The notes under the pieces: model-generated
What the model was told of the DNA's origin: nothing
Seen by the model: only the letters and a program-made list of their open reading frames with translations
The model's database searches: none
Shown: in pieces, positions 29,655 to 34,050 of the stretch
Layout: every line of letters begins with the position of its first letter
How positions within the stretch are numbered: position 1 is the stretch's first letter
Assembly: GCA_019117605.1 (NCBI GenBank)
Contig: DWZK01000116.1
Span: forward strand, 1-64,000
Length of the DNA: 64,000 bases
Direction of reading: 5' to 3'
Source: Candidatus Intestinimonas stercoravium
GTDB lineage: Bacteria > Bacillota > Clostridia > Oscillospirales > Oscillospiraceae
Made by a program: the position numbers and the translations under genes

Positions 29655-30707
29655 TCAACGGTGGAAACCACCGCCCCGGGAGCCTCCTCCGCGGCCGAAG
29701 CCCCCGCCGCCGCGGCTGCCGCCAAAGCCCCCGCCGCGACTGAAGCCTCCGCCGCCGCGGCTGCCGCCAAAGCCTCCGCCACGGCTGAAGCCGCCCCCTC
29801 CGCGGCCGCCTCCGAAACCGCCGCCACGAGGGGGAAAGCCGCCGCCAAAGCCGCTGAAGCCGCCGCCCCTGGGAGGGCGGGGCCCGCGAGGGGGCGGGGG
29901 AGGAGGACGGTGCCAGTGCCGGCGGTACCAGGGGTAGGCGGGCCCGTGCCAGAACAGGATGGGCCGGAACACCACCGGCGGCACGGCCACGCCGTAGTAG
30001 CGGGCGCGGTAGGCGTTGTACCGGGCCCGGTCGATGAGAGTGAGGATCGCTAAGAGGATCGCCAGCCAGAAGATCAGGTCGATGAGCCAACCACCGTCCC
30101 AGCTGCGGACGGGCTGAGGCTGTTGGGGCTGGACCTGCGCCGCAGAGAGGTGAGCGGCGAAATAGCCGTTAAGGGCTCCGTACAGATCTTCCACGCCTTC
30201 CCCGTAGTCCCCTGCCATAAAGTCCGTGTAGAGATACTGGTCCATGTACTGTGTCACGGTATCCGCGCCGAAGCGGGCGTCAAGGTCCGGACCTGTGGCC
30301 AGATAAGCGTCCTGCCCCTGGATATCCAGCACCAGCAGAGCGTCCCGGCTGCCCAGGCCGATCTCTTCGCCCAGCTGATAGGCATAGTCGGAGAGGGAGA
30401 GACCGCCGGTGCCGTTGACGGTGGCCAGCGCCACCAGTGTGCCGTACCGGGCGTCCCAGTTGGCGTTGTAGAGGCACACCGTATCCTCTACGGAGGAGGA
30501 GAGGACATCGGCGCCGTCGGAGAGCAAGTTCGTATAGGGAGAGGTATCCAGAGCGGTGTCCAGCACTTCGGAGGAGGCAGAGGGCTCGGCGATATCCGGG
30601 GACTCGACGGTGTAGTCAGTGCGCCGCAGCTGGCCCAGCACGATCCCCGCCACCACGGCCAGGATCAGCACCGCCACGGCCACCGAACGCTTTTGAAAGA
30701 TCTTCAT
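29655..30707 (-). CDS. TPM-domain protein with Gly/Arg-rich repetitive tail
   Basis: N-terminal TM, TPM-like domain (DGADVLSSSVEDTVCLYN...), C-terminal RGGGG[FS][SG]R repeats. Confidence 0.75.
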   Translation of the reverse strand: MKIFQKRSVAVAVLILAVVAGIVLGQLRRTDYTVESPDIAEPSASSEVLDTALDTSPYTNLLSDGADVLSSSVEDTVCLYNANWDARYGTLVALATVNGTGGLSLSDYAYQLGEEIGLGSRDALLVLDIQGQDAYLATGPDLDARFGADTVTQYMDQYLYTDFMAGDYGEGVEDLYGALNGYFAAHLSAAQVQPQQPQPVRSWDGGWLIDLIFWLAILLAILTLIDRARYNAYRARYYGVAVPPVVFRPILFWHGPAYPWYRRHWHRPPPPPPRGPRPPRGGGFSGFGGGFPPRGGGFGGGRGGGGFSRGGGFGGSRGGGGFSRGGGFGGSRGGGGFGRGGGSRGGGFHR

Positions 30708-30740: not shown

Positions 30741-31940
30741 TCAGCCCCGGAGCTCCAGCAGCTTCTGCTTGAGCTCGCCTTCGATGCGGCCCAGCTCGGC
30801 CTCGGCCTCCCTGCGCTTCTGGGCGCCCTCCTGCTGGATCTTCATCACCTCGTCCAGGGTGGAGATCAGCTGCTGGTTGGTGTGCTGGAGGGTCTGGATG
30901 TCCACCACGCTGCGCTCCGCCTCTTTGGCGGTCTCGATGGTGCCCATCTTCAGCATATCCGCGTTCTTCTGGAGGAGCTGATTGGTCATGTTGGTCACCG
31001 CGCTCTGGGCGGCGGTGGCCTGGCGGGAGTGCTCCAGGCCCAGAGACAGGACCATCTGGCTCTTCCACAGGGGGATGGTGTTCACCAGAGAGGACTGGAT
31101 CTTCTCCAGCATCAGGGCGTCGTTGTTCTGGATGAGCCGGGTCTGGGGGCCCATCTGGATAGAGATCATCCGGGTGAGCTCCAGGTCGTGGATCTTCTTC
31201 TCGAAGCGAGAGCACATGTTCACCAGGTCGTTATATGCCTGGGCGTCCTCCTGCGCCCCGGAGGCGGCGGCCTTCTTCCGCAGCTCTTCCAGCTCCCCGG
31301 CGCGGACCTGGGCCAGGCGCTTCTTCCCCGCCAGGATATACATGGTGAGCTCTTTGTAATACTTGGTGTTCAGCTCGTACATCTGGTCCAGCATGGCCAC
31401 GTCCTTCATCAGGGTGAGCTGGTGGCCCTCCAGGATCTCCACGATCTTGTTGACGTTGGTCTCCGCCTTGGCGTACTGGGCCTTCATGGCCTCCAGGTCG
31501 TTCTTCTTTTTCTGGAAGAAGCCGAAGATGCCCGACTTCTCCTCCTGGCCGAAGTTCTGCAGCTCCCCCACCAGGCCGGCAAGGGCGTCGCCGATCTCCC
31601 CCAGGTCCTTGGTACGCACCGAGTTGAGGGTGTTCTCGGAGAAGGAGGCGATGTTCTTCTGGGCCGCCGCGCCGTACTGGAGCACCACATTGGAGTCGGT
31701 GATATCGATCTTCTGGGCGAACTCGTCCACCATCTTCCGCTCCGCCTCGGACAGCTGGCTCTCGTCCAGCTTCACGGCGTTGGCGTCCCGCAGGGCCTGA
31801 TCGGCGGCCTGCTGCCGGTCGGCCGCGCCCGGGTCCAACGTGAGGGTCGGGGCGGCCGGGGCCTGCTGCTGGGCCTGGGCACCGCCGCCCAGGTCGGGGG
31901 TAAGAGTCAGCTCAGGGGTGAAGTCGGTCTGGTCAGCCAT
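30741..31940 (-). CDS. telA: Toxic anion resistance protein TelA family
   Basis: 399 aa; helical TelA sequence; downstream of xpaC-like gene. Confidence 0.88.
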   Translation of the reverse strand: MADQTDFTPELTLTPDLGGGAQAQQQAPAAPTLTLDPGAADRQQAADQALRDANAVKLDESQLSEAERKMVDEFAQKIDITDSNVVLQYGAAAQKNIASFSENTLNSVRTKDLGEIGDALAGLVGELQNFGQEEKSGIFGFFQKKKNDLEAMKAQYAKAETNVNKIVEILEGHQLTLMKDVAMLDQMYELNTKYYKELTMYILAGKKRLAQVRAGELEELRKKAAASGAQEDAQAYNDLVNMCSRFEKKIHDLELTRMISIQMGPQTRLIQNNDALMLEKIQSSLVNTIPLWKSQMVLSLGLEHSRQATAAQSAVTNMTNQLLQKNADMLKMGTIETAKEAERSVVDIQTLQHTNQQLISTLDEVMKIQQEGAQKRREAEAELGRIEGELKQKLLELRG

Positions 31941-32664
31941 CTTGCATCTTCCTTTCAGTCTCTTGAGTGCCGCTCTCCGGGTGGAATGGGGAGCTGGTGA
32001 GGCCCTCCTGGGCCAGGAGACCCTCCATCACCGTGATGTCGGTGGAGATGTCCAGGGCCTCATCGGCGAAGAGGGCGTCCAGCTGCCGGTCGAAAGCCCG
32101 GACCACGGTGTCCATCATGGACTCTATCTTTCCCATGGTGCCGTCGATGTTCTCTCCGGACACGCCGGCGGCGCCCATGCGGTCATATGCGTTGAGGAGC
32201 TTGAGGGTGGTGGGCAGGTAGTATCTCATGAAGCGCCGGATCTGGGGCAGCTTCTTGGGATGCTCCACCACATGGGAGAAGATCTTGGCGGTGGTGCCCT
32301 CCAGATGGTCGATCTGGGCGGAGACGGTGGGGTCCTCGATGGCGTCGTTGAGGCGGCGCATCTCGGAGAGGGCCAGGTCCCGCTCGCGGATCAGGGCATC
32401 CAGTTCCGGGTCGCCGGTGGTCTCGGCCTTGGGGGGCTCCTCCTGCTTCGGGGGCGTCTCCGCCTTGGGCGGGGCCTCCGGCTCCGGGGTCTGGAAGGTC
32501 CTGTCGGGGAAGACGGCCTTGCCGATGATATAGACGGCCACCGACACCAGGGCCGCGGCCGCATAGTGGACCGGCCGGTAGAAAGGCAGGAACAGCCCGC
32601 ACAGGGGCCAGACTGCCGCTGCCAGATAGAGGGGCGCACAGGATCTTTTGACGACCTTTGCCAT
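31933..32664 (-). CDS. xpaC: XpaC-like (5-bromo-4-chloroindolyl phosphate hydrolysis) family protein
   Basis: 243 aa; two TM segments plus helical C-terminus RRFMRYYLPTTLKLLNAYDRM; overlaps telA. Confidence 0.82.
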   Translation of the reverse strand: MAKVVKRSCAPLYLAAAVWPLCGLFLPFYRPVHYAAAALVSVAVYIIGKAVFPDRTFQTPEPEAPPKAETPPKQEEPPKAETTGDPELDALIRERDLALSEMRRLNDAIEDPTVSAQIDHLEGTTAKIFSHVVEHPKKLPQIRRFMRYYLPTTLKLLNAYDRMGAAGVSGENIDGTMGKIESMMDTVVRAFDRQLDALFADEALDISTDITVMEGLLAQEGLTSSPFHPESGTQETERKMQDG

Positions 32665-32702: not shown

Positions 32703-32731
32703 ATTGTACCCTGCGGGGCTATGGGTGTCAA
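32703..32731 (-). promoter_or_regulatory. Sigma-A promoter for xpaC-telA
   Basis: Minus strand TTGACA-N17-TACAAT. Confidence 0.85.
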
Positions 32732-32743
32732 TGGCCGGGGCCA

Positions 32744-32772
32744 TTGACAGGGGGCGAAAATTTCCCTATTAT
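32744..32772 (+). promoter_or_regulatory. Sigma-A promoter for ilvA
   Basis: TTGACA-N17-TATTAT. Confidence 0.88.
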
Positions 32773-32835
32773 ATATAGATATATCTAATGCACAGGCCCG
32801 GAAAACTGGGCGGCAGCTGGGAGGAAGAGATACAG

Positions 32836-34050
32836 ATGATGACATTGGAAGACTTCAAGGCGGCCCGAAACGTGCTCTCCGGGGTGATATTGGACACCCG
32901 GCTCATCTACAGCCCAGCTCTGTCCAAGTCCACCGGCAATCAGATATACATCAAGCCGGAGAATATGCAGGTCACCGGCGCCTATAAGATCCGGGGGGCC
33001 TATTACAAGATCAGCACCCTGACCCGGGAGGAGAAGGAGCGGGGGCTCATCACCGCCTCGGCGGGCAACCACGCCCAGGGCGTGGCCTACGCCGCCCAGG
33101 CCGCCGGAGTGAAGGCCACGGTGGTCATGCCCACCACCACCCCCCTGGTGAAGGTGAACAACACCAAGGACTATGGGGCGGAGGTCATCCTCCATGGCGC
33201 GGTCTTCGACGACGCGGCCGAGCTGGCCGCCCGGCTGGCGGAGGAGGAGGGGTATACCTACATCCACCCCTTCAACGACCCGGTGCTGGCCACCGGTCAG
33301 GGCACCATCGCCTATGAGATCCTCTCCGACCTGCCCGACGTGGATGTGATCCTGGTGCCGGTGGGAGGCGGTGGCCTGGCCTCCGGCGTGGCCACCCTGG
33401 CCAAGCTCCTCAACCCCAACGTGAAGGTGATCGGGGTGGAGCCCACCGGCGCCGCCTCCATGAGGGCCAGCCTGGAGGCGGGGCATATCGTCACCCTGGA
33501 CAGGGTGGAGACCATCGCCGACGGCGTGGCGGTGAAGACCCCCGGGGACAAGATCTTCCCCTATATCCAGGAGAACTTGGACGGCATCATCACCATCGAC
33601 GACAAAGAGCTGGTGGACGCCTTCCTGGACATGATGGAGAAGCACAAGATGATCGTGGAGAACGCGGGGCTGCTGCCTATCGCCGCCCTGAAACACCTGG
33701 ACTGCAAGGGGAAGAACGTGGTGCCCATCCTCTCGGGGGGCAATATGGATGTGATCACCGTCTCCTCCCTGGTCCAGCACGGCCTGGTGAGCCGGGGGAG
33801 GATCTTCACCTTCTCCGTGCAGCTGCCCGACCGGCCCGGCGAGCTGGTGCGGGTGGCCGATCTGGTGGCCCGGCACAACGGGAACATCATCCGCCTGGAC
33901 CACAACCAGTTCGTGAACATCAACCGCCAGAGCGGCGTGGAGCTGCGGGTGACCCTGGAGGCCTTCGGGCATGTCCACAAGAGGGAGATACTGGCCGGGC
34001 TCCAGGAGGCGGGCTATGACGTCCAGGAGGTCATGACCACCGCCGTCTGA
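32836..34050 (+). CDS. ilvA: Threonine ammonia-lyase with C-terminal ACT domain
   Basis: PLP motif YKIRGAYYKI, GGGGLASGVATLAK, C-terminal FSVQLPDRPGELVRVADLVARHNGNI. Confidence 0.92.
   Translation: MMTLEDFKAARNVLSGVILDTRLIYSPALSKSTGNQIYIKPENMQVTGAYKIRGAYYKISTLTREEKERGLITASAGNHAQGVAYAAQAAGVKATVVMPTTTPLVKVNNTKDYGAEVILHGAVFDDAAELAARLAEEEGYTYIHPFNDPVLATGQGTIAYEILSDLPDVDVILVPVGGGGLASGVATLAKLLNPNVKVIGVEPTGAASMRASLEAGHIVTLDRVETIADGVAVKTPGDKIFPYIQENLDGIITIDDKELVDAFLDMMEKHKMIVENAGLLPIAALKHLDCKGKNVVPILSGGNMDVITVSSLVQHGLVSRGRIFTFSVQLPDRPGELVRVADLVARHNGNIIRLDHNQFVNINRQSGVELRVTLEAFGHVHKREILAGLQEAGYDVQEVMTTAV

Follow-up and report, generated by a model that had tools for sequence, protein, structure and literature searches.

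The xpaC-telA/ilvA intergenic region most probably carries two divergent housekeeping promoters that are conserved among relatives, and the conspicuous palindrome between them is probably a by-product of their two outward-facing -35 boxes. Judging from the loci compared in the genus and family, the promoters are strongly conserved and the palindrome is not; the full palindrome appears to be particular to the window species. The window, i.e., the whole stretch of DNA analysed, comprises 64 kb (64,000 nt) of an Intestinimonas-like genome of 2.35 Mb, whose related named records are Intestinimonas. A divergent promoter pair is ordinary in kind, and a literature search, with subscription journals mostly outside its coverage, returned no report on the xpaC/ilvA locus.

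The two promoters and their flanking genes

The following features were located in the window.

29655-30707, minus strand: TPM-domain protein gene (PF04536, 350 aa)
30741-31940, minus strand: telA (PF05816, 399 aa)
31933-32664, minus strand: xpaC-like gene (PF10112, 243 aa, RBS AAGGAGG)
32703-32708, minus strand: xpaC-telA promoter, -10 box TACAAT (start predicted at ~32696)
32726-32731, minus strand: xpaC-telA promoter, -35 box TTGACA (same hexamer in 46 of the 47 ilvA-paired family loci)
32726-32749, no strand: inverted repeat TGTCAATGGCC-GG-GGCCATTGACA, holding both -35 boxes back to back with 12 bp between the hexamers
32744-32749, plus strand: ilvA promoter, -35 box TTGACA (47/47 loci have TTGACA or TTGACT)
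32767-32772, plus strand: ilvA promoter, -10 box TATTAT (start predicted at ~32779)
32776-32787, no strand: palindrome TAGATATATCTA of 12 bp, spanning the start predicted for ilvA (~32779), not conserved
32836-34050, plus strand: ilvA, threonine deaminase (PF00291 and a weak ACT match, 404 aa)

Every element named in the original prediction was recovered at its position, and the flanking genes had been correctly assigned as xpaC-like (PF10112), TelA and threonine deaminase. The TPM-domain gene is probably in one operon with xpaC-telA; beyond these three genes on the left lie an OmpR-type response regulator and then a histidine kinase. The start codon of ilvA is most likely at 32836 and not at the upstream ATG at 32788, because the former has an RBS (gggaggaag) and a conserved MMTLEDFKAA start. 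No Rfam family of RNA leader or riboswitch was found ahead of ilvA. Previous studies showed that the membrane-stress response CesSR of Lactococcus includes xpaC-like and telA genes (PMC3139573) and, going by the title of a paper in the reference list of PMC12791056, that TelA adds to the nisin resistance of Listeria. Since XpaC and TelA homologues are tied to envelope stress elsewhere, the label "envelope-stress operon" for xpaC-telA-TPM is a fair guess by analogy and not a demonstration. The same genome has a second, more distant xpaC-like gene (G000:C44:2213-2659, 52% identity), which is also present in congeners.

One promoter is directed at xpaC-telA-TPM and the other at ilvA, with their -35 sides toward each other. 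Both match the consensus at 11/12 positions with a spacer of 17 bp, and the predicted transcription starts are ~83 bp apart. Promoter statistics were obtained for the window, together with pattern searches of the genome. This is the only back-to-back pair in the 64-kb window with both promoters matching at least 10/12 positions and a gap of at most 20 bp, and back-to-back pairs at 11/12 averaged 0.0 in 40 block shuffles. Likewise, the 24-mer palindrome gave 0 matches in 100 shuffles; the combination of palindrome and promoter pair is not a chance match. A further promoter-like pair in back-to-back arrangement, with weaker matches (11/12 and 9/12; -35 gap 18 bp), was seen at ~36401 (minus) and ~36425 (plus), where it separates a membrane-protein gene (minus) from a TetR-like regulator reading frame (plus).

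A bidirectional promoter with a shared -10 element was considered and rejected, as the -10 boxes are separate (32703-32708 and 32767-32772) and the predicted starts lie far from each other. The bidirectional promoters described by Warman, Grainger and colleagues (PMC12825309) resemble the locus in their near symmetry and in the steric competition expected between two polymerase orientations; however, they share or overlap the -10 element and their starts are commonly 10-23 bp apart, against ~83 bp predicted here. Divergent sigma-70/sigma-A promoter pairs between head-to-head genes, e.g., E. coli ilvY/ilvC (mentioned in PMC4469952), are alike in layout: each strand bears a complete promoter, and the -35 sides are turned toward each other. 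The window locus differs from these systems in the short distance of 12 bp between its -35 boxes (other genera have 7 bp) and in the symmetric sequence around them, and no shared regulator was found at the window locus.

Conservation of the promoters and variation of the gap

Homologues of XpaC were gathered from the genus and family and 74 loci were examined. ilvA divergently adjoins xpaC in 47 of them (the window and 46 others), representing 17 genera of one GTDB family, although this proportion is not an unbiased frequency since the locus set was ranked by XpaC similarity. The original prediction of two divergent promoters is supported by these loci, as each of the two is strongly conserved across the genera. 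The locus shows the sequence features of a divergent back-to-back sigma-A pair, i.e., opposite strands, facing -35 sides, a gene ahead of each promoter, and conservation of both promoters in relatives. Spacers in the 47 loci were 16-18 bp and the -10 boxes were near consensus. Most positions of the -35 and -10 boxes reached nearly 2 bits of information each, with little between or upstream, and in the genus-weighted profile the boxes and their immediate neighbours carried most of the information; therefore the promoters are the conserved elements. It might be argued that the palindrome arose by chance and that no functional promoters exist, as consensus promoter scans alone are no evidence of function. 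Nevertheless, both promoters are conserved across genera while the surrounding DNA turns over, which makes such an explanation extremely improbable.

Several other arrangements were found in the family. Three genomes from another genus (L115-L117) have telA directly opposite ilvA at approximately locus position 1500, and xpaC is not between them; these loci keep the promoter block TGTCAAGAACACGTTGAC, an 18-bp back-to-back -35 block, exactly as in several other genera. Thus the divergent promoter block persists where the first gene of the operon is missing from that place. In family loci with xpaC not opposite ilvA (such as L082, L085, L088, L090, L095, L099, L101, L102 and L104), the -35 box of the xpaC promoter is often TTGACC instead of TTGACA, so the type of xpaC promoter goes with the neighbour or the clade.

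The gap between the two -35 boxes ranged from 2 to 87 bp among the 47 loci: it was 12 bp or less in 22 loci, 19-30 bp in 7 and 35-87 bp in 18. Within the genus it was 12 bp in the window, 10 or 11 bp in six congeners, 2 bp in L010 and, owing to a longer intervening segment, 77 bp in L007; 8 of the 9 genus loci are thus in the tight class. Outside the genus, a gap of 7 bp occurred in 13 loci of seven genera and one of 9 bp in a single locus, the others having 19-87 bp.

Possible competition between polymerases and proposed joint repression

The original prediction was that transcription from the two promoters is mutually exclusive or jointly repressed. Steric competition between polymerases is plausible at gaps of 2-12 bp, a spacing at which two holoenzymes could clash, and to this extent the first proposal stands. 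Its stronger form, an evolved switch, is weakened by the 18 of 47 loci with 35-87 bp, one of them in the genus. Since the boxes are at least 35 bp apart in these loci, competition is not required for the xpaC/ilvA gene pair; mutual exclusion is possible in the window species, judging from the spacing, and is not a conserved feature.

We consider it unlikely that tight spacing has been selected as a polymerase-competition switch, in which strong firing of one promoter would shut the other and so link envelope stress with isoleucine synthesis. The recurrence of tight gaps in the genus and family, including exactly 7 bp in seven genera, would fit such a switch, and both promoters are near consensus, the condition (improved -35 elements) under which the E. 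coli bidirectional promoters competed (PMC12825309). On the other hand, the widely spaced loci, including the congener L007, have the same boxes; competition between the E. coli promoters was small at basal activity, and separate divergent promoters are excluded from the term "bidirectional" in that work (PMC12825309). Moreover, no functional link between the xpaC operon and ilvA was found. The persistence of the compact block (-35 gap 7-12 bp) in several genera, even where xpaC is missing from the locus, could also suggest a conserved regulator-free toggle in which a polymerase loaded for the envelope-stress operon keeps another off ilvA, and vice versa; this is quite unlikely as well.

The comparison lends no support to joint repression through the palindrome. 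An operator for a dimeric repressor silencing both operons together would be consistent with the perfect 11-nt arms, which overlap both -35 boxes, and with the 8-nt arms common to several congeners. However, a dimeric operator should have a fixed and conserved half-site spacing, and the gaps in the genus were 2, 10, 11, 12 and 77 bp, shifting by 1-2 bp even between sister species. With the other genera included (gaps of 7 and 9 bp as well), half-site spacing and sequence drift while the promoters stay. In addition, no other site in the 2.35-Mb genome matches the palindrome when up to 3 mismatches are allowed, and a regulon search with the palindrome, or with its half-sites at variable spacing, yielded no second copy in the same genome. 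A rigid dimeric repressor is disfavoured for these two reasons. The sole regulator identified beside the operon is the OmpR-type response regulator, and regulators of this type usually bind direct repeats. The operator explanation is accordingly very unlikely, and nothing supports a dedicated repressor.

The further dyad that had been noted, TAGATATATCTA, is indeed present in the window. It was absent from all eight congeners examined, for which reason it was rejected as an operator; it is probably incidental.

Other pairs of TGTCAA and TTGACA in the genome amounted to 19 sites, mostly copies of an unrelated dispersed repeat. This repeat is ~187 bp long, starts with a 42-bp palindrome (CAGCGTGTCAAAAAAGTCCAWWTGGACTTTTTTGACACGCTG) and is present in ~40 full or partial copies (e.g., G000:C28:495-681, C2:708-894, C111:66092-66192 and C111:68252-68435). 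The C111 copies sit 2-4.4 kb past the window end, and none was found in the window. The copies read often follow a terminator-like hairpin. The CAGCGTGTCAAAAAAGTCCAWWTGGACTTTTTTGACACGCTG palindrome was matched once in one congener and had no match in nine others; the repeat resembles a REP- or MITE-like element that has expanded recently.

Origin of the palindrome

The original prediction of a perfect 24-bp inverted repeat was correct for the arms, which are 11 nt each and 100% complementary; however, the 2 nt between them (GG) are not self-complementary, so that 22 of 24 positions are symmetric. The central bases between both -35 boxes are GGCCGGGGCC. A back-to-back arrangement of two TTGACA boxes yields 6-nt arms by itself, and therefore only five extra symmetric bases per side need explaining. 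In the tight pairs outside the genus the arms consist of exactly the 6 box bases (one has 7), and in the tight genus loci they are 8-11 nt long. The extra bases differ by species, extending inward in the window, outward in L010 and in both directions in L005. An 8-nt arm (TGTCAATG/CATTGACA) is common to 6 of the 9 genus loci. An insertion of 2 bp (GC) distinguishes the window from the L004-type sequence TGTCAATGGCCGGG-CATTGACA and lengthens the arm, so that the window sequence is derivable from that type by this change. Symmetry beyond the hexamers exceeded that of permutations in the tight set (P ~0.001 inward and ~0.02 outward), although the rows are related and the test is inflated; the excess is suggestive only. 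Together with the 8-nt arm it leaves room for some symmetric constraint.

Selection on two separate promoters explains everything that is conserved at the locus. The near-consensus pair of sigma-A type, one promoter for xpaC-telA-TPM and one for ilvA, would have been inherited as a unit across the family, with selection maintaining each promoter through its own -35 and -10 boxes. The outward-facing boxes would have provided the seed palindrome, and symmetry could then have been extended by a few bases in the genus and to 11-nt arms in the window species. This extension could possibly be caused by drift or by template-switch correction of the imperfect inverted repeat. Template-switch mutation is a known process that perfects imperfect inverted repeats (e.g., PMC7202029); its templated changes resemble what the 2-bp insertion would have done here, but for the extra symmetry it is no more than a possible source. 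At the 12-bp gap two polymerases would probably not be fully loaded together, leading to passive competition between promoters that may otherwise be constitutive.

An eye-catching promoter palindrome can thus arise without being an operator, as a by-product of two outward -35 boxes. The family also offers a natural series of gaps within one gene pair (2, 7, 9-12, 19-30 and 35-87 bp), which is suited to testing the distance below which two bacterial promoters interfere.
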